Assembly (NCBI GenBank): GCA_036405135.1
Contig: DASWYF010000013.1
Location: 248,001 to 312,000 of the forward strand
Reading direction: 5' to 3'
Length of the DNA: 64,000 nt
DNA from: Verrucomicrobiia bacterium
Lineage (GTDB): Bacteria > Verrucomicrobiota > Verrucomicrobiia > Limisphaerales > JAEYXS01
How positions within the stretch are numbered: position 1 is the stretch's first letter; every line of letters begins with the position of its first letter. Positions 1,959-64,000 of this stretch are shown here, one piece after another. The notes beneath the pieces were generated by a model. It was not told where the DNA came from and did no database searches. It was given only the letters and a program-made list of their open reading frames with translations. A program made the position numbers and the translations under genes.

Positions 1959-3809
1959 GTGCCTGATATTTATGTGCCCGCCATTCCAGCGCGACTGAAG
2001 TTGACGCAGGGAATGGTGGAAGATTTTTTGTGTGACCCGGTGATGGCGGCCAAGGTGCTGCTGGGATATGATCTGGATGTATTCCAGCGCGTGCGCCTAC
2101 GCTATTACTGGTGGGTGGCGGACGTCATCGACGAGTCCGGCTTCAGCACGGGCAAGACGCTGGTGGACTGGATCTACATCCAGTTGCGTTGCATCCTGAT
2201 CACGCACTTCAGCGGCAAGACGCACTGGGCGTCCATCTATTATCCCAACTTCGGTACCGGCAAGCGGTCTTTCTGGGAATACTACTCCAGCACGACTTCC
2301 CCGATCTTCCGGGCGCAACTGGGCAAACTGGATGACGGATTGAGCAGCAACAAGCGGGAGAAAAAGACAAGCGAGGGGGCGGACTGTTTCACCGCTTACT
2401 ATATGTGCGGGGCGAAGGCGTTGCTGCCGGCACCTGATTTCAAGGGTGATGCGAAAGGACAGGCGAGCTTGCGCATCAATACCTTGCTGGTGGAAGAGTG
2501 GCCACACATCGACGCGATGAGCGATGGTATCGACCGACAGCTCATTGGCCGCAGCACGCGGGAGAATTACAACAAGGAGCATCCGATCTGGTGCAATCAC
2601 CGTACGTTCACGGCTCCGGCCAAGCCATCCTCGCACATCTCGACCAAGCGCGTGCGCGTGCATGAGAAGAAGGTCGAGCAGGGCAATACGGATTACGCCG
2701 TGTTGCGCATGAACTACAAGGACTGGAGCCATCGGCCCTGCCACACGGGCAAGAGTTTCCGGGAGGAGTTCTGCGACATGAAGGCCATCAACCACATGAA
2801 GGCCAATCTGCCGGTGGTGGAATTCTTGGGTGAAGGTCTGGGCGTGCGGGACATCGACGGCCGCGGCTGGTATTCCGATGAAGTGATCAATCCCTGCATC
2901 AAAGCGGGGACGGCACTGGGGTTGATGCCCGTGGTGAGCCGGTCGAGCGATACATGGGATTCAGCGCATACGTTTTATTTTCTCGGCGTAGATCCAGCTC
3001 CGGCACAGGGACAGAAGAGCGATGACGGGGCGATGATGATCTTGCGAGCCAGGCCAAAGCAGGTGCGACTGGCACCGCCGACACGCCTAGGGGAAGAAGT
3101 GGTTTATCCTCGGGAAATCAGCGGTTGGGATATCGCGCCGATCTGGGCGAAGAAAGTGCGTTCGGCGCGGGCGGATGAGTGGAGCGGGATCATCCACAAA
3201 GAACACAAATCATGGCGGTTCACAAAGATCATGATGGATTATGGCGGCGGTGGCCAGTGGGTGTGGCCGCATCTCAAGGCGATCGACCAGTTGATCGACG
3301 GGCAGAAGGTGGAATGCCGTCCCATAGCGACCGTGTATGACCATGATGTGCAAAGCAGCATCGCAGACTTGGTGCTGTTGATGTGCTATCGAGGGGATGT
3401 GGAGTTGCGTCGCAAGTGGCCGGAATTGTCCGGTGACGATAATCTGGTGGATGTGCTGCATGGACAATTGCGGGACGCGATGCTGCTGGAACAGCTGCCT
3501 TTAATCGCAGAAAAAAAGGAATGGGATGAGTCGGAGTTGAAGAAGCTGACGCCACCCCAATTGGAATTGTTGGAGACGCTGGGCATCCTGCTGGACGAGT
3601 TCGGGCTGGTGGTGGTGGCGACCGATGAGGAGGGCAATTACATCACCACGTCCCGCGGGGCCAAGCAGTATTCCACCAAGGACAAGAAGGATTTTGTCAG
3701 CGCGCTTTACATGGCACTGGGAGGGTTTTCCATCTGGCTGGCCGGTCTGCAATTCAACGGAAACAACGGTGGCCGGGGCGGTGGATTTGGGGGAGCCAAG
3801 CGGACTTGA
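1959..3809 (+). CDS. terL: terminase large subunit (packaging ATPase-nuclease)
   Basis: Motor that translocates phage DNA into the prohead and cuts it. An ATPase-type P-loop SGFSTGKT occupies residues 60-67, a hydrophobic Walker B-like strand with acidic pair (INTLLVEEW) lies at 173-181, and a C-terminal RNase H-like nuclease is suggested by FLGVDPAP (Asp345), the later MMDYGG strand and DDNLVDVLHGQLRDA. The 616-residue length is normal. The P-loop is divergent, so assignment rests on combined motif order and on the portal gene downstream. GTG start; an ATG four bases earlier runs at once into a stop. Its stop codon overlaps the first regulatory box pair. Confidence 0.75.
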   Translation: MPDIYVPAIPARLKLTQGMVEDFLCDPVMAAKVLLGYDLDVFQRVRLRYYWWVADVIDESGFSTGKTLVDWIYIQLRCILITHFSGKTHWASIYYPNFGTGKRSFWEYYSSTTSPIFRAQLGKLDDGLSSNKREKKTSEGADCFTAYYMCGAKALLPAPDFKGDAKGQASLRINTLLVEEWPHIDAMSDGIDRQLIGRSTRENYNKEHPIWCNHRTFTAPAKPSSHISTKRVRVHEKKVEQGNTDYAVLRMNYKDWSHRPCHTGKSFREEFCDMKAINHMKANLPVVEFLGEGLGVRDIDGRGWYSDEVINPCIKAGTALGLMPVVSRSSDTWDSAHTFYFLGVDPAPAQGQKSDDGAMMILRARPKQVRLAPPTRLGEEVVYPREISGWDIAPIWAKKVRSARADEWSGIIHKEHKSWRFTKIMMDYGGGGQWVWPHLKAIDQLIDGQKVECRPIATVYDHDVQSSIADLVLLMCYRGDVELRRKWPELSGDDNLVDVLHGQLRDAMLLEQLPLIAEKKEWDESELKKLTPPQLELLETLGILLDEFGLVVVATDEEGNYITTSRGAKQYSTKDKKDFVSALYMALGGFSIWLAGLQFNGNNGGRGGGFGGAKRT

Positions 3810-3844
3810 CCATAAAATATGGAGTTCCATTAGAAATGGTTGAC
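3806..3844 (+). promoter_or_regulatory. paired 13-bp operator-like boxes before the portal gene
   Basis: Box CCATAAAATATGG at 3810-3822 follows TTGAC. A second box, CCATTAGAAATGG, at 3827-3839 is 17 bp away centre to centre and is followed by another TTGAC at 3840-3844. Both boxes are inverted repeats (CCAT...ATGG). The terL stop codon lies inside the first TTGAC. No good -10 hexamer follows at 16-18 bp, so this may be a repressor site rather than a simple promoter. Confidence 0.7.
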
Positions 3845-5289: not shown

Positions 5290-5331
5290 TTTTGATTTAG
5301 GCGGAAAAGGGGGAGGAGGAGACAGGGTTAG

Positions 5332-9847: not shown

Positions 9848-11329
9848 ATGTTGAAAGTCCTAAAAGGGAGGCTGGTGCAAAAGGTGGCCAACACAAGCCG
9901 CAAGCTGTGGGAGCCATACACGATCGAGAATCCCCCGGGTGTGCAGGTCATCGTCTCCGCGTATAACTGTGCGCCGATGCTGCCGAGGTTTTTGCAATCG
10001 CTCGAGCGGGCGATGCGGGGATTTCGCTGGGTGTTTCTGGCGGCAGATGACGGAAGCGCGGATGAGACGTACGCAGTGTTGAAAGCGTATGTGAAGACGC
10101 AATGCACGGCGGATGAACACAAGCTGCAGCGGTTCAAAAAAGCGGCGAATGTCAGCGTGGCCAAGAATCGTGTCGTGCGGATGGGCTTTCCGTACCGGGA
10201 AAAATATCCAGCCATCGCGCTCTGTGATGCGGACGACGAGGTGGGCGAGCAGCGGATCAGCGGTTTGCTCGAGATCGCGTTGAGGGAAGGCAGTCTTTCC
10301 TTGGCCGGGGATTTCCTGCGCGAGCGAGGGGGTGAGCGGATCTTGCACAAGGCGGCGGCCCTGACTTATGGACCGCCGATGACGTTGTTCCATGAGGCGT
10401 TGCTGCCGTGGGATGGAACGCTCTTCGATGAGACGTTTCACAACCATGGGGATTGGGCACAGCAGGCGGAGTGGCGTTCGCGGGGAATCTTTACGCGGCT
10501 GGTGGACGGGTTGATCACCAACATTCATGTCTATCATCCGCTCTCGGTCAGCAACAACCTGACGGAAACGCAGATCACGCGCCGGGCGGAAAAGCTCGAG
10601 GGGTTCAAAGCGCAACTGGAAAAGAGGAAGCTGATCAGCTTTTGCACGACGTGCATGGGGCGTTTGCATCATCTCAAGCAGACGCTGCTGGCCAACATGG
10701 AAGTGTGCCGTGATATGCCAGATGTGGAGTTCTGCCTGGTGAACTATAATTCCCAAGATGGCATGGATGCATGGGTGAAGACGGAACTGGGCGAACAGCT
10801 CAAGAGCGGTCGTCTGCGTTATGTGCATACCATGAAGCCGAAGCAGTTCAAGATGGGAGTGGCGAAAAACATGGCCCATGTCCTAGGGACGGGAATGTTT
10901 CTGGTGAACGTGGATGCAGACAATTTCCTCACGCCAGAGTATGTGCAGGCGTTGCGATCGGAGATCGCGGCGGGTGGAGAAGTGATCCACTTCCCGAGTG
11001 ACGACCGAGCGTGGGGTGGGGGCTTTGGCCGGGTGGCGGTCCGGGCCGATCTGTTCCGGGCGGTGGGCGGTTACGATGAGGAACACAGCGGGTGGGGGGC
11101 GGAAGACTGGGATCTGGTGCAGAGGGCGCAACGGATGTCGCGCCGAGCACTGCGCCTGTTAGATCCGCACGTCCTCAGCTACATCGATCATGACGATGAG
11201 GAGCGGCTGAAGCACATGGATGTGAAGAACAAGCACGCGAACAACAAGCGGTGGCACAAGTATTTCATCGCCCGGCTGGAGCGGGGCGAACTGGTGGTGA
11301 ACAAGGGGAAGCAGATAGGCGTGATATGA
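9848..11329 (+). CDS. two-domain family 2-type glycosyltransferase
   Basis: Probably transfers sugars from nucleotide-sugars to a virion or cell-surface acceptor. Domain A (residues about 32-230) has a GT-A fold start VQVIVSAYN, an acidic DDGS at 67-70 and DADD at 127-130, matching the DxD region. Domain B (about 262-440) starts ISFCTTCMGR, has NVDAD at 354-358 and GWGAEDWDL near 415-423, typical of chondroitin-polymerase-like galactosyltransferase domains. The ATG lies one base after the fibre stop codon, so fibre and enzyme are likely co-translated, suggesting the fibre as a possible acceptor (inference). Confidence 0.8.
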   Translation: MLKVLKGRLVQKVANTSRKLWEPYTIENPPGVQVIVSAYNCAPMLPRFLQSLERAMRGFRWVFLAADDGSADETYAVLKAYVKTQCTADEHKLQRFKKAANVSVAKNRVVRMGFPYREKYPAIALCDADDEVGEQRISGLLEIALREGSLSLAGDFLRERGGERILHKAAALTYGPPMTLFHEALLPWDGTLFDETFHNHGDWAQQAEWRSRGIFTRLVDGLITNIHVYHPLSVSNNLTETQITRRAEKLEGFKAQLEKRKLISFCTTCMGRLHHLKQTLLANMEVCRDMPDVEFCLVNYNSQDGMDAWVKTELGEQLKSGRLRYVHTMKPKQFKMGVAKNMAHVLGTGMFLVNVDADNFLTPEYVQALRSEIAAGGEVIHFPSDDRAWGGGFGRVAVRADLFRAVGGYDEEHSGWGAEDWDLVQRAQRMSRRALRLLDPHVLSYIDHDDEERLKHMDVKNKHANNKRWHKYFIARLERGELVVNKGKQIGVI

Positions 11330-11725: not shown

Positions 11726-11755
11726 CCATACAAAATAGTTGACCACAGAATATGG
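11726..11755 (+). promoter_or_regulatory. paired 13-bp operator-like boxes
   Basis: CCATACAAAATAG at 11726-11738 and CCACAGAATATGG at 11743-11755, centres 17 bp apart, with TTGAC at 11739-11743 between them. The arrangement equals the pairs at 13366 and 33129. It lies just after the membrane protein gene and 40 bp before the next start codon. Confidence 0.7.
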
Positions 11756-13365: not shown

Positions 13366-13395
13366 CTATAAAAAATAGTTGACTATATAAAATAG
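13366..13395 (+). promoter_or_regulatory. paired 13-bp operator-like boxes before the scaffold-capsid genes
   Basis: CTATAAAAAATAG at 13366-13378 and CTATATAAAATAG at 13383-13395 are both perfect CTAT...ATAG inverted repeats, centres 17 bp apart. TTGAC at 13379-13383 lies between. It is the only AT-rich stretch in this part of the late operon and precedes the scaffold, decoration and capsid genes. Confidence 0.75.
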
Positions 13396-13453: not shown

Positions 13454-14149
13454 ATGAACCACGACATCTCCTGGCTTAAAAAGTTTTTCAAGAAGCAGCA
13501 AGACCTCATCGCTTCTGCTCCCACCACGATCTCCGCAAAGCTCAAGGAAGCTTTGAACAAGCAGAGCGGCCAGATGGCCACGGTGCTGGCTGGCATGCCG
13601 GCGGATGACAAAACCGAAAGCATGACCGGGGAAATCGCCTTGGTGATCTGCGGCGGCATGGCGGAGTTGCTGGAGCAACAGAACGCCACGCTGCTCGGGT
13701 TCGACGGTGAAGTGGATAACCGCGTGAAGGTAGTGCTGGCCGGTCGCATCGACAAGGGTGAACTGATCGAGAAGGCCACGCACGAGAGCCTGATCGAAGC
13801 CGCGAAGAAATCGGGAGCTGCCGAGGAAGCGGGCAAGCAGGAGATCTACGGCAAAAATCGCCAAGCCATCGTGCTGGCGGGCATCGCCGGGACCGAAGAC
13901 CTCGCGATCTTGGGCCTGCCGAAAGAAGGTTTTCAGACGGCGGTGGATACGGCCAAGAAGCGCCATGGCGAGATCAAGGCGCTGAAGGTGGAGCTGCCGG
14001 TGGCGCAGATGTCCCGTCTGTTGTGGGGCACAGAGGAGGCATGGGGTTCGCAGTTCGAACTCATCAAGTGTGCGGCGGGCAAACCGGGGAATCCTTTCCC
14101 CGCACCGAAGCCCGGCGAAGGCGACAAGGGTGCTTATCCGCCGATGTAA
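13454..14149 (+). CDS. putative capsid scaffold protein
   Basis: A 231-residue, alanine- and lysine-rich, mostly helical soluble protein lying between the protease candidate and the decoration and capsid genes. Composition and position fit a scaffolding protein that guides prohead assembly. The C-terminus (GKPGNPFPAPKPGEGDKGAYPPM) is a proline-glycine tail. No motif proves the role. ATG preceded by GGGGAGGC about 25 bases upstream and by AGAAAAGGG immediately upstream. Transcription may begin at the box pair about 60 bp before. Confidence 0.5.
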   Translation: MNHDISWLKKFFKKQQDLIASAPTTISAKLKEALNKQSGQMATVLAGMPADDKTESMTGEIALVICGGMAELLEQQNATLLGFDGEVDNRVKVVLAGRIDKGELIEKATHESLIEAAKKSGAAEEAGKQEIYGKNRQAIVLAGIAGTEDLAILGLPKEGFQTAVDTAKKRHGEIKALKVELPVAQMSRLLWGTEEAWGSQFELIKCAAGKPGNPFPAPKPGEGDKGAYPPM

Positions 14150-20409: not shown

Positions 20410-21324
20410 ATGAGTAACAGCGTTGTATTCACCTTGCTGGAAGCGAAAGTCGCGCTCTACCGGTTGGATGCGGAAGGCCAGCCGTTACTGGCCTATCCGG
20501 TCTGGAGGCTTTCCTCTGCGGAACGATTGCAGATGGTGCAAACGCCGATCGAGGTCGAGACGTGGCCGACCGGCCGGGAGAATCCGCATGTGCGTCTGAC
20601 GGGGATGCGGCATGACATCGATATCGGGCGAGTGTGGGAACTGAACCGGAGCCAGCCATTGGATCTGCCGCTGGATCTGGACGGCCGCTACGTGCTGGTG
20701 ATCGGTTGGACGGAGGAGGGCAAGCGACCGGTGTGGCACTCGAAGACGTACTATGGGGTGACGGAGAAGCGCCGGGAGATAGACCAACGAGCAGAGCGGG
20801 GTGCATTGAAGCCGGACAACGGTTTTCATTTCCGGGCAGAATCCATGGTGCCGAACGGTGGGGCAGGCATCTTCAATTTTCCCGAGCCGACGCTGCCGCC
20901 ATTGTATGTGCAGTGGGTCAATGGGTCAGAGAGCCTGCGGCTGTTCGAGTACAATCCGACGACGAAGACATTCAGCGAAAGCCAGACCGGACTGGCGACG
21001 GGCCGGGCGAGCATCGGCAATGCGCCGTTCAACGTACAGATCCAAAGCACGCAAGCGTGGTGGGTGGCAGACGGGGTGCTGACCTGTCACGATCTGGTGG
21101 AGGATGCGGGTATCGCGCCCAGCGAGAAGCCACGGCTGGAGTTCTGGCGTGGAACGCGAAGACTGGCGACCGTGGGCAAGGCGGGCTTGGTGCGGGTATT
21201 CGAGCTGACGGAGGCGACGCCTTCAGCCAGCGCGAGCAAGTTCCAATTCCTTGCGGCAGGCTCGACGCTGGCGGCGACGCTGGGCGAGGAAGGCTTGACG
21301 GCGAATTCCATCGCAGAAATCTGA
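20410..21324 (+). CDS. hypothetical virion protein (304 aa)
   Basis: Not recognised. Beta-rich throughout, with tryptophan-containing strands (YPVWRLSSAERL; YVLVIGWTEEGKRPVWHSKTYYGV; PPLYVQWVNGSESLRLFEYN) that suggest carbohydrate-binding or Ig-like modules. It is the last gene before an operator-like box pair and rlpA. Position at the end of the fibre cluster suggests a tail accessory protein. Confidence 0.45.
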   Translation: MSNSVVFTLLEAKVALYRLDAEGQPLLAYPVWRLSSAERLQMVQTPIEVETWPTGRENPHVRLTGMRHDIDIGRVWELNRSQPLDLPLDLDGRYVLVIGWTEEGKRPVWHSKTYYGVTEKRREIDQRAERGALKPDNGFHFRAESMVPNGGAGIFNFPEPTLPPLYVQWVNGSESLRLFEYNPTTKTFSESQTGLATGRASIGNAPFNVQIQSTQAWWVADGVLTCHDLVEDAGIAPSEKPRLEFWRGTRRLATVGKAGLVRVFELTEATPSASASKFQFLAAGSTLAATLGEEGLTANSIAEI

Positions 21325-21363: not shown

Positions 21364-21393
21364 CCATAAAAAATAGTAGCCTATATAAAAGTG
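21364..21393 (+). promoter_or_regulatory. paired boxes overlapping the rlpA start
   Basis: CCATAAAAAATAG at 21364-21376 and a weaker CTATATAAAAGTG at 21381-21393, 17 bp apart. The linker is TAGC, without TTGAC. The second box includes the proposed GTG start codon. Confidence 0.6.
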
Positions 21394-24211: not shown

Positions 24212-27200
24212 GTGGGTGCGCAGTTACTGGAAAAGCTGACATTTGAGGTCGAGTTACCGAGGACCACGGGAGGGTTCAAAGGTTTACTGGAAGAATTGCG
24301 GGCGATCGACACGGCCCTTGCAAGTCTCCAGATGCGTTTTAGCGGACTGTCCCAGCCGGGATTCTTCCGCAAGAGCGCCCGTCAGATCGAAAAGGAACTG
24401 AAGGCATTCCAGCAGACGATCTCGAAATCTTCTCCGCAGGACATCGGCAAGTATCTGGGCTTCGATGATCAGACCCTTAAGAATTTCTTTGGCAAGGCGG
24501 AGGTGGCGCGGGCGGGTTACTTCAAGAATTCACGGGCGGCGGCGGGTGAGTTCGCCAAGCTGAGCAAGGAAGCGAGCAAGAATGCGGATGTCACGGCCCA
24601 AGCCTTCGCCAGTTTTTTGAACGGTGGCACTGGGCGGGTGGCGGGCCAGATACCGGTCGCGGCAGTCGCTGAAATCAAGACGGCGCAGGTGAACGGAATC
24701 GTGCCGTTGATCGTGCCTGCCAGCCAGGTCAAAGCGGTGCTGGAAGGGGCGGTGACATTGACCATTCCCGCCAGTGCGGTGCAGGGCGTGGCGAAGGGTG
24801 GCACCGCAGGAGCGGCTGCTTCAGGTGCAGGTGTGACGGCGACCGGCGGAAAGGTTCCGAAAGCGGGCAAGAGCAACAGCCCGTCTGCTGCGGAGATCGA
24901 ACGCTTCACCACGACGAACAAGAAGGGCACGACGACCGCCATCACCAAGGCGTTGAATCCGTTTGATACGGAAACAGTCGTCACAAATCCGAAGGGAGGA
25001 GAGACAGTCATCCGGCGGCAGCAACGCGGTAAGGAACTGGTGCAGGGCGTGAACGACCGGCTGGCGGAAACGCGATCGCGGATGGGGCAGGAAATGGATT
25101 CTGGTTTCACCGGCAGGCGTTCGGCGGATCTCAAGAGGCGGGCGGATCTGCTGACCAAGGCGGCGGCGGATGTCGAAGCCATCCTCAATGACAGCAAGAA
25201 AGATCTCGAGGCCATCAAGCAGAAGCGGGTGGTGCGGCAGCTAGAGAACCGGGTGGGCAGCTTGAAAGCGCAGGCGGCGAAGGCGCAAGAGCAGTCGGCC
25301 CAAGCGGCATTGGCCGAGGCGACCACGGCAGCGAAGGCGATGGCTCCGGTCTACCGGGCAGGTGAACGTACGCGCAAGCAGATCGAAAAGGACCGGCTGA
25401 AAACCGAGGCCGCGGATGAGAAGGCGAAGGAAGCTTTGCGCAACCAGCAGAACACGGTGCTGCATGGGGCGACGTCGCAGGCGTTGATGGATGGGGCGCT
25501 GACTTACGGATATACGCAGAAATCGCAGACACAAAGGACGCGGGTTTCGAACAAAGGAAATCCGATCAATGTGGTTTCCACCGTGATGGAGAAGGAGGAG
25601 GGCGGGAAGAAGCTGACGAAGACGCTGGTGCAGGAATACGACCAAGCGGGCAAGCTGCTGAAGACCAGTCTCACCGACACCACGAAGGCGTTGAAGGATG
25701 TGCACGACTCGGCCAGTGCGGCGGGCCGTGGGTTTGTGCAGAACACAGCGAACGTGACGTTGTGGGCGGCGAGCGTGGCCACGCTGTACGGTTCACTGAA
25801 TCTGCTGAAGACCAGCCTCAGCAGTGTGATCGATATCGGATTGCAGACGGCGCGACTCGACCAGGTGTTCCAAGGCGTGGGTGGTTCGGCCCGGCAGTTG
25901 CGGGATGATGTGCTGCGACTGGCGGCAGCGGAGGGAAGATCTTCGGAAGAAGCCATCCAGAGCGCGATATCGTGGAGCCGTCTAGGATTGACGCGGGCAC
26001 AGGTGAATGAAGCGGTGCGTGTTTCCCTGATCGCGGCGAACGTGGCGGAACTGGATGCGGCGGAGGCGACGAACCGGTTGCAGGCGATCTACATGGCGTA
26101 TGGCCTGACGGTCGGACAGTTGGCCGGTGTGCTGGGCCAGTTGAACGAAGTTTCCAATACGTTCAACGTCACCAACCGTGATCTCCTCGATGGTATCTCG
26201 AAGACGGTGGGTGTGGCGAAACAGGCGGGACTCGGACTGAGTGAACTTATCGGCATCGTGGGTGCGACGGCGGGTTCCACGGGGCAGAGCGGTGCGAACA
26301 TCGGTAACGCGGTGAAGTCCATCATCACCCAGCTCTCCAATCCGGACATCCAGAAATTCCTGCGTCATGAATTCAAACTGGAGACGACGGAGAGCGGCGG
26401 GTCGGAACTGAAGAACATGAGCAAGGTGCTGGCCGACCTGTTCGTGTCCTACCAGAAGATGACGGACATCGAGCGGCAATGGCTGCTGGTAAAAGTGGCG
26501 GGCCGTCACCAGTCCAGCCGCATGGCGTCCATGCTGGATTCCTACATCCGGGCGCAGACGCTGGCGATCAACGCGCAGTTGAACCTGAACAGCGCCGAGG
26601 AGGAAAACGCCAAGATCAAATCCACATTGGCGGCGCAGTTGAAAAACATCTCGACGGAATGGGACCGGCTCATCTCCAAGCAGGGCGAGAACGGAGCGGT
26701 GCGGATGATGAGCGAGATGGCGCAAGCCTTCAGCAATGTGCTTTCCGTTCTGAACAGTGATTTCGGCAGCAAGGCATTGACGGCCATCGCCGTGCTGCTG
26801 GCGGTCATCACGGCGCGTTTGATCCTGACGGCGGTGAACATGATGAGAGCAGGGACGGCCACGGGTTATATGGCCACCACGGCGCGCCAACTCGCGGGAG
26901 CGTATCAGCAATTGAATGCCGTGATGGACCTGACCATCGCCCGGTTGCACGCCTCGCCGGGGTTGTGGGGGCGGATGAAAGCCTCCGCACTGTCGGCGAT
27001 CGGAGCGATCAAAGGTGCGTTTTTGTTCATGTGGAAATCATTGCAGGTGGCACTGGTGGGATTCATCACGATGCTGCCGCAGATGGCGGTATTCGCGGCG
27101 GGATTGTGGGCGTGGAACCGGGGGATGGATGCGATCGGCAGAAGCAGCGAGGCGGCAGAGCGCAAGCTGGCGGGCTTCAATGCCGAGGCAGAGCGGGCGG

Positions 27201-28912
27201 CCAGTGCGGCCGCGGCGGCTGCACAAGCGGCGCGACTCTATGACACGGCGCAACGGGCACTGCCGGCGATGCGTTCCGAGAAAGAACAGATCCGGCTGGT
27301 GAAGCAACTCGGGGATGTGGGTTTATCCAAGTCGGACCAAATCAAAGTCATGGATTCGTTACGTTCGGGTGACACGCCTGCGGCCAATGCCGTGCTGGAG
27401 AAGGAACGGGTGGAATGGATCGAGCGGGCGGTGGAAGAAAGGCAGAAAGAGTATGAGGCCATCCAGAAGAACATCCAGTTGGCGGAAGAGGAAGTGGACC
27501 GTTTAAGGGGCAGCTTTTTGCCGGATGCGAACCTGATCAAAGAATGGGAATCGCGTCTCGAGGAGATGCGCAACAAGGGAGTGAAGGCGGCTTTGGACAT
27601 CAGCCGCGGGCTGGATGATTCGCTCGAGCAGTATCACGCGAACGATGCGCAGAGCCAGGCGAACTTGGAACGGCACAAGATGATCTTGCAAGGCATCGCG
27701 GAGATCTATCGCGAGATCGGTTCGATGACGCCGATGGGCAAGCATATGCTCGATGTCCAGAGCCTGGAGTCGCAGGTGGGCTATCTCGAGAGACTGGCGC
27801 CGAAGCTGGAGAGCCAACGGGCGGGGCTCATCGAGGATCTGCAACGGAAGCGGCGTGAGCAGAACAACAAGGAGGCCGAGGAGAAACGCAACGAGGCGAT
27901 GCGCATCCGGGAAGAAGGCATGCGGGTTCCGTACGGCATGCCCGCCTACATGTCGCAGAGAATCAGCCAGCTTGAACGTGAGGCATTCAACCTCGAGGCC
28001 CCGACGAATCGTGGCATCGCGGGCAATGCGGGTTATCAGCAACTCTTGAAGCTGCAGCGGCAGGTGGAAGACGACCTGAAAGCCAAGCGCACGGAACTGG
28101 AGGGAGTGAAAGCGCAGGAAGAACAGGCCCGTCAGCGGACGCGGCTGAACCTCGCCACGCAAGGAGCCAAGGCGGAGGCGTCCCAGTTCGATGTGGGCGA
28201 CAATGAAGCGGAGAAGTTGCGGGCGCGAGAGGCTGGCTTGCGGCGGCTGATCCAGCAAAAGGAAAAAACTTTTGAGGCGATGCGTCCGATCGAGGAGCAG
28301 GAACGGAACATCGCGGGATTGTTGCAGCACCAGTTGGACCTTCAGGAATTGCTCATCGAGAAAGAACGGATGAAGCATCAGCTCACCCGGGATGAAGCGC
28401 AGTTTTTGAAGGAGCGGAACAAAGAGGCGCAGAGGGCTTTGGCGATGGCGGGACCGGAGGACATGTTGCGCCGGTTGGGGGCATCGCAACTGGTGCGCGG
28501 CGGGATGGATGCGGGCAAGTGGTTCTCACTGGATCCGAAGATGCGCGAAACCATCCAGCAAATGTTCCCGCAATTCTCGTTCGAGTTCCGGGAGATGCGC
28601 AAAGCGAGGCAGGCATTGGGTGGACCGAAGCCCGCGGGTGAACTGGAGAAAGACATCGACGCCCTCGACAAAGACCGCCGCCGTTGGCTGGGGCGACTGA
28701 AGCCCAAAGATGGAGATCCAGCACCGAACCTGCCGGACGAAACGAACCGGCTGGCATTGGAATTCAGGAACCTCGGCAAAGGCGTCTCGGCTTTCGCGGA
28801 AACGGTGAGCAACGCGGTAGCGAAGATAGACGCGGCCATCGCCGGCATGAAGCCGGGAGGCGGAGGTGGGTTGAACCGTCCGCGTCAGGCAATGGGAGGA
28901 GTGGTCGGATAA
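24212..28912 (+). CDS. tail tape measure protein
   Basis: A 1566-residue protein that sets tail length and helps DNA cross the envelope. It follows the frameshifted chaperone pair, is by far the longest tail gene, and is dominated by alanine-, lysine- and glutamine-rich coiled-coil segments (residues about 270-480 and 1010-1450). Residues about 560-830 resemble the TP901-type tape measure core (e.g. GLSELIGIVGATAGSTGQSG). A hydrophobic block near 925-970 (GAFLFMWKSLQVALVGFITM) could insert into the membrane. GTG start with GGGAGGGG upstream. Confidence 0.85.
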   Translation: MGAQLLEKLTFEVELPRTTGGFKGLLEELRAIDTALASLQMRFSGLSQPGFFRKSARQIEKELKAFQQTISKSSPQDIGKYLGFDDQTLKNFFGKAEVARAGYFKNSRAAAGEFAKLSKEASKNADVTAQAFASFLNGGTGRVAGQIPVAAVAEIKTAQVNGIVPLIVPASQVKAVLEGAVTLTIPASAVQGVAKGGTAGAAASGAGVTATGGKVPKAGKSNSPSAAEIERFTTTNKKGTTTAITKALNPFDTETVVTNPKGGETVIRRQQRGKELVQGVNDRLAETRSRMGQEMDSGFTGRRSADLKRRADLLTKAAADVEAILNDSKKDLEAIKQKRVVRQLENRVGSLKAQAAKAQEQSAQAALAEATTAAKAMAPVYRAGERTRKQIEKDRLKTEAADEKAKEALRNQQNTVLHGATSQALMDGALTYGYTQKSQTQRTRVSNKGNPINVVSTVMEKEEGGKKLTKTLVQEYDQAGKLLKTSLTDTTKALKDVHDSASAAGRGFVQNTANVTLWAASVATLYGSLNLLKTSLSSVIDIGLQTARLDQVFQGVGGSARQLRDDVLRLAAAEGRSSEEAIQSAISWSRLGLTRAQVNEAVRVSLIAANVAELDAAEATNRLQAIYMAYGLTVGQLAGVLGQLNEVSNTFNVTNRDLLDGISKTVGVAKQAGLGLSELIGIVGATAGSTGQSGANIGNAVKSIITQLSNPDIQKFLRHEFKLETTESGGSELKNMSKVLADLFVSYQKMTDIERQWLLVKVAGRHQSSRMASMLDSYIRAQTLAINAQLNLNSAEEENAKIKSTLAAQLKNISTEWDRLISKQGENGAVRMMSEMAQAFSNVLSVLNSDFGSKALTAIAVLLAVITARLILTAVNMMRAGTATGYMATTARQLAGAYQQLNAVMDLTIARLHASPGLWGRMKASALSAIGAIKGAFLFMWKSLQVALVGFITMLPQMAVFAAGLWAWNRGMDAIGRSSEAAERKLAGFNAEAERAASAAAAAAQAARLYDTAQRALPAMRSEKEQIRLVKQLGDVGLSKSDQIKVMDSLRSGDTPAANAVLEKERVEWIERAVEERQKEYEAIQKNIQLAEEEVDRLRGSFLPDANLIKEWESRLEEMRNKGVKAALDISRGLDDSLEQYHANDAQSQANLERHKMILQGIAEIYREIGSMTPMGKHMLDVQSLESQVGYLERLAPKLESQRAGLIEDLQRKRREQNNKEAEEKRNEAMRIREEGMRVPYGMPAYMSQRISQLEREAFNLEAPTNRGIAGNAGYQQLLKLQRQVEDDLKAKRTELEGVKAQEEQARQRTRLNLATQGAKAEASQFDVGDNEAEKLRAREAGLRRLIQQKEKTFEAMRPIEEQERNIAGLLQHQLDLQELLIEKERMKHQLTRDEAQFLKERNKEAQRALAMAGPEDMLRRLGASQLVRGGMDAGKWFSLDPKMRETIQQMFPQFSFEFREMRKARQALGGPKPAGELEKDIDALDKDRRRWLGRLKPKDGDPAPNLPDETNRLALEFRNLGKGVSAFAETVSNAVAKIDAAIAGMKPGGGGGLNRPRQAMGGVVG

Positions 28913-33128: not shown

Positions 33129-33158
33129 CTATAAAAAATAGTTGACCATAAAATATGG
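33129..33158 (+). promoter_or_regulatory. paired 13-bp operator-like boxes before glycosyltransferase cluster
   Basis: CTATAAAAAATAG at 33129-33141 and CCATAAAATATGG at 33146-33158, centres 17 bp apart, with TTGAC at 33142-33146. This is the clearest example, carrying one perfect copy of each box type. TAACCT at 33164 is a poor -10 candidate 16 bp after the hexamer. Confidence 0.75.
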
Positions 33159-33255
33159 ATAGATAACCTACTTGCGTTACTAATCAGTGATGTGCCGGGG
33201 GGCGGAAACCTCCCCATCGCCTCCCGGCCTCTGATTGTTTTTCTGCCCTGAGATT

Positions 33256-34575
33256 ATGACCATGAAGTTACTTATCGTTGGAGATTCCCCGACCAAGCAA
33301 ACAGGTTTCAGCCGGGTAGTGGAGAACATCGCCAAGCGTTTAAAAGTCACCGCCAAAAGCATCGACATCTGGGGCATCAATCATCAGGGGGTTCCGCACG
33401 ATTTTCCTTATCGCATCTGGCCAGCGACATTGAACGGGCCGGTCTGGTATTCGGAACCCAACCTCAAGGGTTTGCTGAACGTGCTGGCGGGTGGTGATTT
33501 CACGCACGTCTTGGTGGTGCAGGATTCGTTCGCTTTTCCCAAATGGTTTGCCGATGCCTTCGCACAAATCTGTGGGCACCGCAAGATCCGCAGCTTGTAT
33601 TACATCCCGGTGGATGCCTCGCTGGATCCGAACTGGCTGGAGCTGGCACGGGTGGTGGACTGGCCGGTGGCATACACGCACTACGGGCGCATGGAGATAT
33701 TGAAGGCGGCGGCGATGGCGATGGAGCCGTGGGAGTATCAGACACTGGAGCAACGGTTGAAGGTGTTGCCGCATGGTGTGGACCGCTCCATCTATTTCCC
33801 GTTGCCGGACCGGGAGAAGATCCGCAAGCAAGTGCTGCCGAACCTGCCGGAGGGGGATGTGGTGCTGATGAATGTGAACGCGAACCAGCGCCGGAAAGAC
33901 CCGGTGCGTTCACTGGAGATTTTGGCGGAACTGTTGCGCATGGGTGAGCGTGTGCGTCTGGTGATGCACATGCCACCTGTGGGGCATGACGAGCTGGACC
34001 TGCCGTGTGCCGGGGCGCAACTCGGATTGCGTTACGGGGAGGACTGGCTGGTGACGGACATGCTTTTCAAGGGGACGATGCGGACCGGGACGGAGGAGGA
34101 GTTGAACAAGATCTACAACATGGGCGACATCCTTATCAGCAGCACGCTGGGTGAGGGGTTTGGCCTGACGACGATCGAAGCCTTGGCGACCGGGATGCCA
34201 GTGGCACTCCCGAACCATACGGCCTGCACGGAGATCGTGAATACGCTGGCAGGAATGGGCACGGTCCAAGATCCGGCCAGTGCGCAAGCGTGTCTGTTCC
34301 CAACGGAAGAACATACGGTGATGTTGCCATGGGACAATGCGCGGATGCGCCGCCGAGCGGATGTGAAGGGTGCGGCCTTGGTGATCCAAGAGATGATCCG
34401 AAGCGGGGAATACAAGAAGCGTCAGCGTCTCAGCAAGAAGGCGGCTGCCTGGTTGAGCTGGGACCGGGTGGTGCCGGAGTTCCGTGATCTGTTGATGAGC
34501 GCGCCGCCTGCTCCAGTTCCCGCCCCGGTGAAGAAAGAAGAGGCCCTTGATGGGGGACAGCCAGTGGCAAAATAA
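33256..34575 (+). CDS. GT4-type glycosyltransferase
   Basis: A 439-residue GT-B fold enzyme. The N-terminal domain begins MTMKLLIVGDSPTKQTGFS. The C-terminal domain has the nucleotide-sugar site: VLPHGVDRSIYFPL near 165, LMNVNANQRRKDP near 195, then LISSTLGEGFGLTTIEALAT near 290, containing the EX7E-like motif of GT4 enzymes (E-G-F-G-L...E). The acceptor is unknown; virion or host-surface glycan are candidates. ATG at 33256 chosen over an in-frame TTG at 33235. An operator-like box pair lies 100 bp upstream. Starts a three-gene plus-strand block. Confidence 0.8.
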   Translation: MTMKLLIVGDSPTKQTGFSRVVENIAKRLKVTAKSIDIWGINHQGVPHDFPYRIWPATLNGPVWYSEPNLKGLLNVLAGGDFTHVLVVQDSFAFPKWFADAFAQICGHRKIRSLYYIPVDASLDPNWLELARVVDWPVAYTHYGRMEILKAAAMAMEPWEYQTLEQRLKVLPHGVDRSIYFPLPDREKIRKQVLPNLPEGDVVLMNVNANQRRKDPVRSLEILAELLRMGERVRLVMHMPPVGHDELDLPCAGAQLGLRYGEDWLVTDMLFKGTMRTGTEEELNKIYNMGDILISSTLGEGFGLTTIEALATGMPVALPNHTACTEIVNTLAGMGTVQDPASAQACLFPTEEHTVMLPWDNARMRRRADVKGAALVIQEMIRSGEYKKRQRLSKKAAAWLSWDRVVPEFRDLLMSAPPAPVPAPVKKEEALDGGQPVAK

Positions 34576-35301: not shown

Positions 35302-36591
35302 ATGAAGCCAGTCAAATACATCATCGTGTTGCGTACGGTGGATCGTGCGCCGGAAGCAGAGAACTATCTGTTCAAAACGCTTGCCAACCTTGAGCGTGCG
35401 GGCTTGTTCCGGTCCAGCATCCCATTCCAACTCGTGATTTTCTCTGACAGGGAAGCGGGGGGTGCATTTCAAGCAGAATTAGCCGACTGGCGGTTAAAAT
35501 ATCCCGACCTGATCACCGTGGAGAAATCGGACAAGCGCTTGACGCCCAATCAGAATGCGGCATGGGCTCTGCATCATGCGTCCATCCAACCTGCCCAGTG
35601 GGTGTTATTCCTCGAGGATGACGTGGACTTCTGCGCTGATTTCTTGGAGAGCGTGGATGTGTGGCGGCGCAGGGTGGAGCATCCGGACATCAAACTGTAT
35701 TCGCTGTGCGCCGCCTATGAGGGGGTGCGTCTGGCGCAGGTGGTGTGGGAATATCCGGTGAAGGATTTCTACGGCACGCAAGCCTACCTGTTGCGGCATG
35801 ACGTGGCGGTGGATCTAGCGGAGTTCCTGTCGAAGAAGCCGAAGTGGAAGGGCAAAGACAAGGGGCACGATATGCTGCTCAAGGAATGGGCGGGCAAGAA
35901 GGCGCGGTTTGTGGCGGCAGCGCCGAACTTCATCCAGCATATCGGCAAGCAGTCCTCACTGCATCTGGGCCGCTTCCATGACTATCCATCATGGCCGGGG
36001 CAGGATTGGAGTTTCCTGCGGGAAGCCGCGGGCAATTCGATGTTCACGGTGGAGGAGCAACAGTCGCGTCCGTTCTCTGATGCGCTGGCGAAGGCACTGG
36101 TGCAATCTTTCCCGAAGGACAAGCCGGTGCATGATCTCGGGTGTTCGCTGGGCCATTACGTGAAGGCGTTGCGTGAGGGCGGGCTGGATGCGCATGGTTA
36201 TGAAGGCACGCCGGGTATCAGCGCGCATGCGGTGGTGCCGGTGAACTGGGCGGAGCTTTCTTCGCCGATGCATCCGGGTAACTACGGCAACCTGGTCGGT
36301 TCGGTCCTGTGTCTTGAGGTGGCGGAACATATCCCGGCGGAACGGGCGGACGTGTTCTTGAAAAACGTGGCGGAGTTCTGTGTCCCGGGCGGCAAGCTGG
36401 TCCTCTCATGGGCGGTGAAGGGACAGGGTGGCCGTCGCCATGTGAACGAGCAGAACTGGGACCATGTGCTGCCGACGATGCGCAAGCATGGCTTCGTGTA
36501 TCAGCGGGGCGAGGCGTTGGAGCTGCGCAAGGTGGCGGGCGCGCAGGTGAAGTGGTTCGCGCAGAGCCTCTACGTGTTCACGAAGGTCTAA
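35302..36591 (+). CDS. glycosyltransferase-methyltransferase fusion
   Basis: A 429-residue two-domain protein. Residues 1-250 resemble a GT-A glycosyltransferase, with WVLFLEDDVDF at 100-110 holding an acidic metal-site motif, and FIQHIGKQSSLH near 210-221, typical of such enzymes. Residues about 270-429 form a class I methyltransferase: motif I VHDLGCSLGHYVKAL at 276-290, VLCLEVAEHIPAE near 335, and a C-terminal WFAQSLYVFTKV strand. It could add and then methylate a terminal sugar. Six bases after the P-loop gene and followed by a terminator. Confidence 0.75.
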   Translation: MKPVKYIIVLRTVDRAPEAENYLFKTLANLERAGLFRSSIPFQLVIFSDREAGGAFQAELADWRLKYPDLITVEKSDKRLTPNQNAAWALHHASIQPAQWVLFLEDDVDFCADFLESVDVWRRRVEHPDIKLYSLCAAYEGVRLAQVVWEYPVKDFYGTQAYLLRHDVAVDLAEFLSKKPKWKGKDKGHDMLLKEWAGKKARFVAAAPNFIQHIGKQSSLHLGRFHDYPSWPGQDWSFLREAAGNSMFTVEEQQSRPFSDALAKALVQSFPKDKPVHDLGCSLGHYVKALREGGLDAHGYEGTPGISAHAVVPVNWAELSSPMHPGNYGNLVGSVLCLEVAEHIPAERADVFLKNVAEFCVPGGKLVLSWAVKGQGGRRHVNEQNWDHVLPTMRKHGFVYQRGEALELRKVAGAQVKWFAQSLYVFTKV

Positions 36592-36611
36592 GAATCTGGA
36601 TTATCCAAGGG

Positions 36612-36649
36612 CGGCAGGCGGAAGAGACACCGCCTGCCGTTTCCTTTTT
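36612..36649 (+). terminator. intrinsic terminator after the late genes
   Basis: A perfect 10-bp stem, CGGCAGGCGG with CCGCCTGCCG, is followed by TTTCCTTTTT. It separates the virion-glycosylation block from the agmatine deiminase gene. Confidence 0.8.
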
Positions 36650-36689
36650 AAATGGTGCGAAAGTGTGGAAGCTGGGTAGGCTGCGGTAT

Positions 36690-37733
36690 ATGTTGTTACC
36701 GTCACAACTTGGTTATCGCATGCCCGCGGAATGGGAACCTCACGCGGGGACATGGTTTACCTGGCCGCGGCCAGAGGGTATCAGTTTTCCTGACAAATAT
36801 GATACGGTGCCGCCGGTGTATGCGGCTTTGATCCGGCAGTTGGTGTTGGTGGAAGATGTGCATATCAATGTGTGGCACGCCGAGATGGAGGGATGGGTGC
36901 GTGAGTTGCTGGGCAAGAATGCGGTGCCGTTGGAGCGGGTTCACTTCCATCATTTCCCGGCCTACGAGCCATGGTGCCGGGATCATGGGCCGATCTTCCT
37001 TGTGCGGGAGCAGGGTGGCAAACATGAGCGTGCCGTGGTGGACTGGGCTTATAATGCGTGGGGTGGCAAGTATCCGCCGTTTGATCTGGATGATGCCGTG
37101 CCCCAGCAGGTGGCGAAGTTACGCAGTTTGCCGCTCTTCTCGCCGGGTATCGTGATGGAGGGTGGCGCGTTGGATGTGAATGGCAAGGGGACGTTATTGA
37201 CGACGGAAGCGTGCCTTTTAAATCCGAATCGCAATCCTGACCTGACCAAGGAACAGATAGAGCAATACCTGAAAGATTATCTTGGGGTGACGAACATCCT
37301 GTGGCTGGGTGACGGGATCGTGGGCGATGATACGGACGGGCATGTGGATGACCTGACACGTTTCGTGAATGCGAACACGGTGGTGACGATCGTGGAAGAA
37401 GATCCACGGGATGAGAACTATCACCTGCTGCAGGAGAATCTGAAGCGCCTGCGCACGATGCGGGATCAGGATGGAGAGTTGTTACGGGTGGTAGAGCTGC
37501 CGATGCCGGGCCGGATTGAGCATGAAGGGCAGCGGCTGCCGGCCAGCTATGCGAACTTCTATATCGCCAATGGCATTGTGCTGGTGCCGACGTATCGCTC
37601 GGCAAATGACCGGAAGGCGTTGAGGATTTTGCAGGAGAATTTCCCAGGCCGGAAAGTGATCGGGGTGGATTCGACAGAGTTGATCTGGGGATTGGGTTCG
37701 TTTCATTGCATCAGCCAGCAGGAGCCGGTTTAA
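36690..37733 (+). CDS. aguA: agmatine deiminase (peptidyl-arginine deiminase family)
   Basis: Hydrolyses agmatine to N-carbamoylputrescine and ammonia, a step to putrescine. The 347-residue length is normal for the family. It has the typical start YRMPAEWEPHAGTWFTWP at residues 9-26, RDHGP at 97-101, EGGALDV at 157-163, DDTDGHVDD at 213-221 with a catalytic His, and nucleophile Cys340 in GSFHCISQQEP at 336-346. All key residues look intact. The ATG was chosen because homologous proteins begin just before this motif. It stands alone between terminators among phage genes, so it looks like cargo (a moron). Confidence 0.85.
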   Translation: MLLPSQLGYRMPAEWEPHAGTWFTWPRPEGISFPDKYDTVPPVYAALIRQLVLVEDVHINVWHAEMEGWVRELLGKNAVPLERVHFHHFPAYEPWCRDHGPIFLVREQGGKHERAVVDWAYNAWGGKYPPFDLDDAVPQQVAKLRSLPLFSPGIVMEGGALDVNGKGTLLTTEACLLNPNRNPDLTKEQIEQYLKDYLGVTNILWLGDGIVGDDTDGHVDDLTRFVNANTVVTIVEEDPRDENYHLLQENLKRLRTMRDQDGELLRVVELPMPGRIEHEGQRLPASYANFYIANGIVLVPTYRSANDRKALRILQENFPGRKVIGVDSTELIWGLGSFHCISQQEPV

Positions 37734-52829: not shown

Positions 52830-52859
52830 CAGTTTTAAATGGTTGACCATAAAATATGG
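52830..52859. promoter_or_regulatory. paired 13-bp operator-like boxes
   Basis: CAGTTTTAAATGG at 52830-52842 and CCATAAAATATGG at 52847-52859, centres 17 bp apart, with TTGAC at 52843-52847. It sits between the minus-strand gene start and the small plus-strand frame. Confidence 0.65.
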
Positions 52860-52893: not shown

Positions 52894-53046
52894 ATGAACA
52901 AAGCGGGAAATGAAGACGCGAGAGTTCTGGGATGGTGCAATCCATGCCTCAGACTACATTATTCCATAAAAAATAGTAAAACTAAATTTTATGGAGAAGT
53001 AACCGAACATATCCGAATCAGTTCCGGGAGGTGTGCAGTTGTTTGA
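52894..53046 (+). CDS. possible small plus-strand gene (50 aa)
   Basis: Short frame with a strong GAGAGGAG site four bases before ATG, 35 bp after the box pair at 52830. No recognised product. A second box pair lies inside it and its end overlaps the convergent minus gene. Could be an early regulatory peptide or a chance frame. Confidence 0.3.
   Translation: MNKAGNEDARVLGWCNPCLRLHYSIKNSKTKFYGEVTEHIRISSGRCAVV
52964..52994. promoter_or_regulatory. second box pair in the 52.8-53.0 kb gap
   Basis: CCATAAAAAATAG at 52964-52976 and CTAAATTTTATGG at 52982-52994, centres 18 bp apart, without TTGAC in the linker. Confidence 0.6.
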
Positions 53047-60698: not shown

Positions 60699-62201
60699 TT
60701 AGCGAAGCCAGCCCGCCCGCCAGCCTTGCGACGCCTTACGCCATGAATCCTCTAACCCGCCGCGATGCTGGAGCAGCAAACGACGCGCTTGCATGGCCGA
60801 GGCAAAAGCCCGCCCGCGTTCATCGGTGACCCGCGCCCATTGGCCCGCCAGTGGCGATTGAACCCAGCAAGGGCGAACTTCGGCGCGCTCAGTGGCGCGC
60901 CGCGTGCAAGTGTAATCTCGCACCGTGCCGCCCTCGCCCGTGACGGCCAGCACCACGCCGCCAGATTCACGCCGTACAGCCTTCGCCGTGCCCGCAACAC
61001 CCTTGGCGAGCATGCCGGAAGCCAAGGCCCGTTGCGCCTTTATCAGCTTGCCCGCCCGCAACGCCGTTACCCGCGCCCTTGCCCGCAGGTGCTTCAACTC
61101 CGGCATACGTTCCCAATGATCTGTACAAGCATCGCCCAGCTTGGCCCACACTTGGCCCGATCTGAAGGACTCGACGGCAGCACGCCCGGAAGCGAAGCCA
61201 GAAAGCCGCGCCGCATCTGAGAGGGATTGACCGTGCAAGAGACGGACCAGCACCCGCGCCCGTTGCGCCGCCGTGCGCCGAGCTTGTGACGGTCCCGCGC
61301 CCTTGCCCTTGATGCTGCCAACCAGAACGGCCCAGACCCAACGGCAAGCCGTCTCCCTGGCGTTGTCCTTGGCAGACGGAGGACGTACCGCGGCCTGATT
61401 CGCCCACGTTTGCAAGCCCGCTTGCTCTACCTCTAATTGAACGTCCGAGAGGGGAACGAATTGGAGCTTGTCCACTTCGCTAGAACGGCCCGAGACGGGA
61501 GACGCGAACTCAACGAGAGACTTGTGAGCAGCACGCCAGCCGATACGCCAGAGCAGCTTGAGGAATCGCGACCTCTCCCAGTGTTCGGGGCGAACGCCCC
61601 GCTTGCTAGATACCTTGGCCCACATCGCGCTAACGGCATCGCTGGCCGCGTCCTGAATCGAAGTAGAGGACGGGCTTTTGCCGTACTTGCGCGTAAGGGA
61701 ACGGGCAGCACGGGCAGCACAACCGCCCCCGCCCCAAGTCGCGCTCTGCGCCTTGCTGAATCCCTCGCCCCCGGCCAGCTTCATTAGGCGAAGCCCTACC
61801 TCTTGCTCCTTCCGAATCTCTTCGGCAATCCATGGCCACCGCTCCTCTTGCTCTGCTTGCGCGATAGCGCCGCGCATCTCCTTATCTAGCCCCTCGCCCA
61901 CCGGGCGAGCTTGCTTGATTGGAACACGGCGAGGCGTGAGGCGATTGCTGGCCTGTAGTGCCTTCACTCCCGCCGAAGGCGCAACTTCTTCCCACTCGCC
62001 GGTAGGCGAGCGAAACGAAGCCGCGCCGCCGTCAACAACGATGCTACCGTCATCTATCCCGCGCCCTTGCCCCGCGCCCCCTGTAATGTCTCCTCCTACA
62101 CGGTGACCAAGTGTAGCCACGTCAGGAGGTAATAAACCCCAGTCCATGCGCTTCGGTGCTTCGTTCGTTGCGCCCGTCCATCCCATTGCTGTTAGCTTCA
62201 T
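60699..62201 (-). CDS. sigma-70-like regulatory protein (tentative)
   Basis: A 500-residue protein in a GC-rich island. A segment in the middle resembles an ECF-type sigma factor: IQDAASDAVSAMWAKV then RSRFLKLLWRIGWRAAHKSL (region 2-like), a spacer, and AQRARVLVRLLHGQSLSDAA followed by a second helix (region 4-like helix-turn-helix). Long N- and C-terminal extensions are alanine- and arginine-rich. It could redirect host polymerase to phage promoters or be a replication or regulatory protein. Start uncertain: in-frame starts at 62279 (GTG), 62231 and 62213 also exist. Confidence 0.4.
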   Translation of the reverse strand: MKLTAMGWTGATNEAPKRMDWGLLPPDVATLGHRVGGDITGGAGQGRGIDDGSIVVDGGAASFRSPTGEWEEVAPSAGVKALQASNRLTPRRVPIKQARPVGEGLDKEMRGAIAQAEQEERWPWIAEEIRKEQEVGLRLMKLAGGEGFSKAQSATWGGGGCAARAARSLTRKYGKSPSSTSIQDAASDAVSAMWAKVSSKRGVRPEHWERSRFLKLLWRIGWRAAHKSLVEFASPVSGRSSEVDKLQFVPLSDVQLEVEQAGLQTWANQAAVRPPSAKDNARETACRWVWAVLVGSIKGKGAGPSQARRTAAQRARVLVRLLHGQSLSDAARLSGFASGRAAVESFRSGQVWAKLGDACTDHWERMPELKHLRARARVTALRAGKLIKAQRALASGMLAKGVAGTAKAVRRESGGVVLAVTGEGGTVRDYTCTRRATERAEVRPCWVQSPLAGQWARVTDERGRAFASAMQARRLLLQHRGGLEDSWRKASQGWRAGWLR

Positions 62202-62279
62202 ACTGTTTGCCATCGGCAGTGCCCGCACCATGCAAGCAAAAGCTGCCAATGTCCTTTCAAGTGCCAGAATCGCGGACAC

Positions 62280-62624
62280 TTGCGAGTTACACCACCTGCG
62301 AACGCGGGTTTTTCTCGGTTTCGATTGCCCCGTAAGCCGCTGATAATAAGCCGGTTGGGCATTGTGTTTTTATGGGGTATTACGGCCAGTAGGGGGGTAG
62401 ATTTTGAGGAAAAAATCGCCCGTTTGCAGTTTGGGGGGTAGGTGGTGCTGACGCACAGATAAATTCGCTCGATCGGGAGCGCGGCGAGATCAAGATCAGC
62501 CACATTTTGAGCCGGGGGATGCAGGCGAGCTTTGGGCGCGGGCTCGGGCTGGGGTGTGGATCCCGGCCAGGCCCAGCCTCGATAATGGGGCGCGGGACAG
62601 GGCGTTACTTCATTGGAGTAAGGT
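62280..62624. other. intergenic stretch, nothing supported
   Basis: I see no convincing gene, only a minus frame that looks like antisense noise. Confidence 0.45.
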
Positions 62625-62935
62625 GGTAACAGATCTTGGAGCCGAGTTTAAAACGGTCCAATCTATATCTATATATCTATATATCAATGACTTATGAAAT
62701 AAATAAAGTAACACTGTTACCTCTGTTACCTCTGTTACCTAAATTTATGCAAGCAACGTGCTGCTGCTATCAAAGACAATTTAATGATCAACGGAACAGT
62801 GTTGTGCTAGCAGTGGTGGATAGAGGTATTTTGTTTGGGGACGTAACACTGGTAACAGCTATGCTTAACCTTCTCTAATTCAGATACTTGCGTGTTCCGT
62901 TGTCTGAGTAACAAGTAATCTGTCTGGTAACATTC
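62625..62935. other. iteron-like repeat region with AT-rich stretch (candidate origin)
   Basis: GTAACA or its complement occurs about nine times in 300 bp: GGTAACAG at 62625 and 62851; a palindrome GTAACACTGTTAC at 62708; three perfect 9-bp tandem copies of CTGTTACCT at 62714-62740; further copies at 62843, 62908 and 62927. An alternating AT tract with ATCTATAT units occupies 62661-62685. CAACGGAA also repeats (62787, 62950; inverse at 62895). Repeats next to an AT-rich unwinding tract resemble iteron origins. A frame running through it on the plus strand is not convincing. Confidence 0.55.
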
Positions 62936-63001
62936 TGCTAGCAGCGATCGCACAACGGAAACCGGAAGAAGTAAACGAATCTAAAAGGGCAGGGGCTAGG
63001 G

Positions 63002-63813: not shown

Positions 63814-63861
63814 ACACCGAGCGTAGTATTCTGTTTTTTATGGTAATGTCAAAAAAAATGG
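63814..63861 (-). promoter_or_regulatory. repressor promoter with flanking boxes
   Basis: On the minus strand: consensus TTGACA, 16-base spacer, AATACT. Boxes of the family flank the -35: a partial CCATTTTTTTTGA at 63849-63861 and CCATAAAAAACAG at 63831-63843. The predicted transcript starts about 20 bases before the repressor ATG. Confidence 0.65.
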
Positions 63862-63868
63862 AATTTCT

Positions 63869-63914
63869 TCGTAAAAATTATTTGACCATAAAATATGGAG
63901 ACTATATTTTGTAG
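63869..63914 (+). promoter_or_regulatory. divergent operator-promoter for the rightward gene
   Basis: Perfect CCATAAAATATGG at 63886-63898 and CTATATTTTGTAG at 63902-63914, centres 16 bp apart, with TTGACC at 63882-63887 and a degenerate third box before it. TATTTT at 63905 is a candidate -10 at 17 bp. Confidence 0.7.
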
Positions 63915-63948
63915 CGAACATGTTGGGGCGTAAACTCAGGAGATACGT

Positions 63949-64000
63949 ATGCATTGCCAAAGGAGACTGAAGAAAACAATGTTAACCATTCTTGAGGCTG
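63949..64000 (+). CDS. partial gene leaving the window (Cro/early regulator position)
   Basis: ATG with CAGGAG seven bases upstream, then CATTGCCAAAGGAGACTG; the visible residues are HCQRRLKKTMLTILEA. The frame is open to the window end. Position opposite the repressor suggests the first rightward early gene. Confidence 0.5.
   Translation, partial: MHCQRRLKKTMLTILEA

Follow-up and report, generated by a model that had tools for sequence, protein, structure and literature searches.

Paired near-palindromic boxes and a putative master repressor in an 87-kb tailed prophage of a Verrucomicrobiota genome

In the lambda-type CI/Cro switch, the repressor gene is divergent from a rightward transcription unit, several operators lie between the two, and the repressor regulates its own synthesis. 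In the Streptomyces phage phiC31, inverted-repeat operators (CIRs) bound by the phage repressor occur at many places in the genome. Phages of the L5/cluster A type rely on one immunity repressor with an N-terminal HTH, which has over twenty 13-bp sites distributed along the genome, both in promoters and in short gaps between genes; the orientation of these sites follows transcription, one of them lies upstream of the repressor's own gene, and they are asymmetric and bound by a monomer that has a second DNA-binding domain (PMC9283540, PMC6550527). In SPbeta, about ten dispersed intergenic 15-bp elements (SPBRE) in promoter regions are bound by the master repressor MrpR, which has a tyrosine-recombinase fold (PMC10516654).

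Here we describe a prophage of a Verrucomicrobiota genome in which one family of 13-bp boxes recurs in intergenic gaps and is densest beside the gene of a small XRE protein. From the arrangement of genes and boxes, we consider it probable that this XRE protein is a master repressor that controls itself, a rightward transcription unit and a set of dispersed units through a single operator family.

The prophage and its gene layout

The window, a 64,000-nucleotide stretch of DNA (C13:248001-312000) from a 5.8-Mb host genome, lies within an 87.4-kb region (C13:226111-313535) that is bracketed by a 23-bp att-like direct repeat (AAAAATAATTATAAAAATTATTT, copies at C13:226111 and 313513) and that extends past the window by about 22 kb to the left and 1.5 kb to the right. 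Genes were called with a simple codon-usage script, and start codons are those called; positions without a prefix are window positions. Structural genes, including a tape measure gene (Table 1), are read rightward from -21.6 to 38.8 kb of the window, while mostly leftward genes occupy 38.9 to 63.8 kb, and a tyrosine integrase ORF, with a weak but recognisable Pfam match, lies directly inside the right att-like copy. Other genes within the 87.4 kb encode a helicase, a resolvase, a RadC protein and methylases. With structural genes, an integrase and att-like repeats, the region is a tailed prophage.

Several further features of the region were recorded. A peptidyl-arginine deiminase gene (PAD_porph, E 2e-121; 36408-37733), which overlaps a methyltransferase-like ORF, may be a cargo gene, and two glycosyltransferase-like genes (9848-11329 and 33235-34575) lie amid the structural genes. 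Upstream of the early gene 60699-62279, a cluster of GTTACC/GGTAAC repeats (62625-62931) beside AT-rich runs is a candidate replication origin; a cluster of this kind is also found at the matching place of a syntenic prophage (G022:C27, about 28064-28460). Just beyond the right end of the prophage lie five consecutive tRNA genes (Arg, Asn, Pro, Ile and His; L018:3784-5555), between which tRNA-remnant-like stretches were noticed by eye.

Table 1. Genes, promoter-like sites and boxes in window coordinates (bits: score by a PWM trained on boxes outside the switch)
Feature	Position	Strand	Remarks
Terminase-like large protein	1959..3809	+	Query for relatives; called a terminase from motifs, without a family match
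Box pair (3810, 3827)	3810..3839	+	Begins one base after terminase-like ORF
Box pair (11726, 11743)	11726..11755	+	Upstream of likely start of ORF ending at 12508
Box pair (13366, 13383)	13366..13395	+	Before ORF 13454-14149
Box pair (21364, weak 21381)	21364..21393	+	After ORF 20410-21324
Tape measure protein	24212..28912	+	PhageMin_Tail, E 1.5e-23; marks region as tailed prophage
Box pair (33129, 33146)	33129..33158	+	Before ORF 33235-34575
Box pair (52830 weak on -, 52847 on +)	52830..52859	mixed	Upstream of leftward early gene
Box pair (52964 on +, 52982 on -)	52964..52994	mixed	Between leftward early genes
Membrane protein, 122 aa	63002..63370	-	Overlaps end of repressor gene; hydrophobic segments by eye; no Pfam match
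XRE/HTH_3 repressor candidate, 142 aa	63363..63791	-	Pfam HTH_3, E 3e-6; N-terminal HTH and helical C-terminal region
Leftward (repressor) promoter-like site, TTGACA-16-AATACT	63825..63852	-	-35 63852-63847, -10 63830-63825; 4% of shuffles score as high
Box CCATAAAAAACAG	63831..63843	-	17.2 bits; fills most of leftward promoter spacer
Box TCAAAAAAAATGG	63849..63861	+	12.8 bits; overlaps leftward -35
Very degenerate fifth box	63869..63881	+	5.2 bits; directly upstream of rightward -35
Rightward promoter-like site, TTGACC-17-TATTTT	63882..63910	+	-35 63882-63887, -10 63905-63910; 2% of shuffles score as high
Box CCATAAAATATGG	63886..63898	+	22.1 bits; in rightward promoter spacer
Box CTACAAAATATAG	63902..63914	-	19.4 bits; over rightward -10
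Start of rightward unit: 56-aa basic ORF, then 84-aa ORF	63949..64000, on to L018:1119; L018:1123-1377	+	

A box family in the intergenic gaps

The consensus of the box family, CYATAAAAWATRG, is 13 bp long and near-palindromic (CYATA-AAA-TATRG), and its A-tract gives it a direction. Boxes were first gathered by eye and by pattern; as an iterated PWM drifted to weak AT-rich sites, all later statistics were made either on the fixed consensus or with a PWM from which the boxes under study had been left out. The prophage contains 11 exact copies of the consensus and 18 copies with at most one mismatch, compared to 0 and 0.3, respectively, in second-order Markov copies, and neither kind occurs in 74 kb of flanking DNA. 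A longer form, TTGACCATAAAATATGGA, has four exact copies and, at up to one mismatch, is present only in this prophage, while seven of the nine genome-wide matches to the 18-mer form at up to three mismatches fall within it. Intergenic DNA is AT-rich and short motifs recur in it, but these counts, together with the empty flanks and the near absence of the boxes elsewhere in the host genome, refute both a chance occurrence of AT-rich motifs and a repeat of the whole host genome as explanations of the boxes.

Seventeen of the 18 boxes are intergenic, compared to 11% of the DNA (binomial p about 1e-15, treating paired boxes as independent). The lone non-intergenic box, at 52847, extends into the opening codons of an ORF whose called start is TTG; should translation in fact begin at the in-frame ATG, this box would be intergenic too. 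Most boxes come in pairs, six of them spaced at exactly 17 bp and nine within 16-18 bp, and most boxes match as dyads at 6-10 of 12 positions, where 3 are expected. An unsupervised search of the intergenic DNA found the same family again. The boxes have properties expected of dispersed repressor operators: a single site family, spread across the prophage and found essentially nowhere else, intergenic in position, and present in the regulatory region of the putative repressor itself. A separate repeat with a 10-bp period, CACAGATGAACACAGAT, is also scattered over many of the prophage's intergenic gaps (at about 16856, 44021 and 50386, among others) and is unrelated to the boxes.

In the rightward half, pairs lie before transcription units at C13 226273, 240262, 251810, 259726, 261366, 269364 and 281129, and single boxes are found at C13 230252 and 240335. 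The A-tract is in the transcribed orientation in all 16 boxes of the rightward structural region, partners included; the early, leftward half has two pairs, of mixed orientation. Given this placement in gaps upstream of transcription units, the orientation with transcription, and the concentration of boxes over the promoters of the repressor gene, we regard a function of the boxes in partition, in packaging or as chromatin-like sites, with no direct role in transcription, as very improbable, even though sites of that kind could likewise be dispersed, repeated and confined to the prophage.

Several boxes start 0-40 nt past an upstream stop codon, and most pairs end about 40-76 nt ahead of the next start. 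In a sigma-70 scan, which used approximate E. coli weights that may not fit this host, the -10 often fell inside the second box of the dispersed pairs; at the level of about 5% of shuffles, only the two switch promoters and the leftmost cassette stood out, and eight of 11 cassettes were not clearly above. Two general promoter layouts were considered and rejected: (i) TTGACC as a universal -35 at the boxes, as there is no consistent -10 behind TTGAC at most dispersed sites; and (ii) a uniform promoter in which the second box is the -10, a geometry that is suggestive but not above shuffles at most sites.

These observations bear on how a repressor might act at the dispersed pairs. A variant of the master repressor reading, different only in the mechanism at these sites, holds that the pairs are mainly stoperators, at which bound repressor would block elongating polymerase, and that true promoter operators exist only at the switch and perhaps at the leftmost pair. 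The short distance from stop codon to box, the scarcity of promoters clearly above chance and the single orientation of the rightward-region boxes, a rule that L5 sites also obey (PMC9283540, PMC6550527), are consistent with this variant. However, at most sites the distance from pair to next start is fairly constant, as if the pair overlapped a promoter, the early-half pairs have mixed orientation, and the promoter scores depend on E. coli-like weights from which the host consensus may differ. We thus view predominantly stoperator-like action as a serious possibility, though not as the expected one. Only tentatively, and with some doubt, do we suggest that an independently evolved form of stoperator-like silencing operates in Verrucomicrobiota phages, in which a small HTH repressor acting on paired, phase-locked near-palindromes in intergenic gaps would block elongation as well as initiation across 87 kb.

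A probable switch region at the right end

The densest cluster of boxes is flanked by the XRE gene on the left and, on the right, by two small rightward ORFs that face the integrase gene. This site, near 63.8 kb of the window and at the right end of the dormant 87-kb prophage, is best explained as its immunity (on/off) switch. A structure model of the XRE protein, built from one sequence (mean pLDDT 66), consists of the HTH and C-terminal helices, and a structure search with this single-sequence model gave no significant match. The gene for the 122-aa membrane protein that follows the XRE gene is possibly a superinfection-exclusion gene. Neither of the rightward ORFs, of 56 and 84 aa, has a Pfam match, in a scan that a short Cro-like protein could escape. 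The 84-aa ORF (L018:1121-1377) lies along its whole length antisense to the 3'-terminal part of the integrase ORF, and a syntenic prophage has a similar antisense layout (L060:5274-5606 versus 4271-5416). The assignment of this ORF as an excisionase found no support in a comparison with the small ORF at the same place in G022, to which its product has no detectable similarity.

A reading of the sequence alone had placed two promoter-like sites here, facing away from each other, and we located both where it had put them. By simple consensus counting, the region holds no more promoters than chance would provide (3 found, 2.5 expected); by a graded sigma-70 score, with the same approximate weights, each of the two beats base-shuffled copies of itself (Table 1). 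To avoid circularity when assigning boxes, a PWM trained on 19 boxes outside the switch was run on the 157-bp interval that separates the two genes. It found four boxes above 12 bits, compared to one such site in the remaining prophage (training sites excluded) and a mean of 0.07 in Markov copies of the switch, which bears out the earlier proposal that switch boxes and dispersed boxes are one family. At the very degenerate fifth box, TAAAAATTATTTGAC is two mismatches from TAAAAAATAGTTGAC of the dispersed pairs. An exact TAAAAATTATTTGAC is present both at 63872-63886, in the switch, and at L018:2524-2538, across the right att-like copy; this is probably chance in AT-rich DNA. The early promoter region beside the repressor operon (62280-63000) contains no strong box.

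The same sequence-only reading held that boxes bracket each -35. This is true of the leftward promoter, whose -35 is overlapped by the box at 63849, with the box at 63831 just downstream; at the rightward promoter, the upstream partner (63869) is the very degenerate one, and the strong boxes lie instead in the spacer and over the -10. From these positions, a protein bound at the switch boxes would block polymerase at both promoters, and this geometry makes autoregulation, the natural reading of the site, likely. The additional proposal of mutual exclusion, conversely, found no support, as it calls for a second, opposing regulator or for overlapping promoters: no Cro-like gene was recognised, 29 bp separate the two -35 hexamers, and both promoters are covered by boxes of one family, so that one protein would shut both.

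According to the master repressor reading, the XRE protein would bind the boxes, probably as dimers and usually at box pairs with a spacing of about 17 bp. When bound at the switch, it would limit its own synthesis and keep the rightward unit off, while from the pairs in the gaps of the structural half, and from one place in the early half, it would directly silence those units during lysogeny. If the repressor were lost, all box-bearing units would be released jointly. Since most boxes stand ahead of structural genes and in sense with them, their core CATAAAATA resembles a -10 and many early proteins have no family, the boxes could alternatively be sites for a phage activator or an alternative sigma factor acting on late genes, encoded by an unrecognised early gene, rather than for XRE. 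We consider this unlikely: at the switch the boxes occupy the position of a repressor, within the spacer and the -10 of the promoters, the leftward early half also contains two pairs, and the near-palindromic form of the boxes would suit a dimeric repressor. That the XRE protein itself binds them is suggested by the location of its gene beside the densest cluster, by comparison with the syntenic prophage, and by the fact that no other HTH regulator was recognised in the scanned prophage proteins; as many of these proteins have no family match, another prophage protein may conceivably bind the boxes.

Relatives and known systems

Searches with the terminase-like protein led to relatives in Verrucomicrobiota assemblies, and kinship with these, within the same order, is what places the host in the phylum. 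The syntenic prophage, at about 24-108 kb of G022:C27, has integrase, early and structural genes in common with ours, at 26-58% identity, but no XRE relative could be detected in it, and its box matches do not exceed background; its switch region encodes small proteins that, by eye, resemble ribbon-helix-helix proteins. The related prophages of G068, G090, G119 and a Spartobacteria contig, most of them partial pieces, likewise lack the boxes, and none of the close relatives sampled has both XRE and boxes. The G022 comparison fits the view that boxes and XRE go together, and with it the earlier proposal that ties the boxes to the repressor, the co-variation being drawn from this one absence. 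Two distant full-length XRE relatives (25-29% identity; G133:C394:12488-12877, L036, and G151:C727:10886-11278, L038) are chromosomal and lie beside epimerase-like genes; they are uninformative on boxes and indicate that the XRE family is not only viral. Among viral contigs, the box pattern has 10 matches, all single exact sites in AT-rich contigs and none in clusters, and the XRE, tape measure, early-protein and terminase queries found no relatives there; the terminase-like protein also had no match among phage records.

A full-text literature search found no description of a prophage operator system in Verrucomicrobiota. Phage-wide operators are already known from a few model phages. The system described here would be a further independent case, and such a case would point to a strategy that phages use repeatedly, in which the repressor silences structural genes directly. 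In addition, the motif of the paired sites could serve to recognise prophages of this type and to predict their immunity.

The system differs from the lambda switch in that no Cro-like second repressor was found and in that the operators reach beyond the immunity region. It resembles the phiC31 CIRs, by description rather than by sequence, in that operators of inverted-repeat form, here putative, recur along the genome of a phage. With SPbeta it shares a large prophage, dispersed elements in promoter regions and one master repressor, here putative; however, the motif differs, and the candidate is an HTH_3 protein of 142 aa rather than one with a tyrosine-recombinase fold. The similarity to L5 includes the 13-bp length of the sites, their intergenic placement, the presence of a site at the repressor's own promoter and the N-terminal HTH of the repressor, here a candidate. 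As to the L5 orientation rule, 16 of 16 boxes in the rightward region run with transcription, and orientation is mixed in the leftward region. Unlike L5 sites, the boxes are near-palindromic and mostly paired at about 17 bp, and the XRE protein showed no homology to cluster A repressors (no tblastn match among 50,697 phage records at E 0.01). By analogy, the XRE protein would thus work like the repressors of L5 and SPbeta and yet appear to belong to neither family, as it lacks those of their defining features that were tested.
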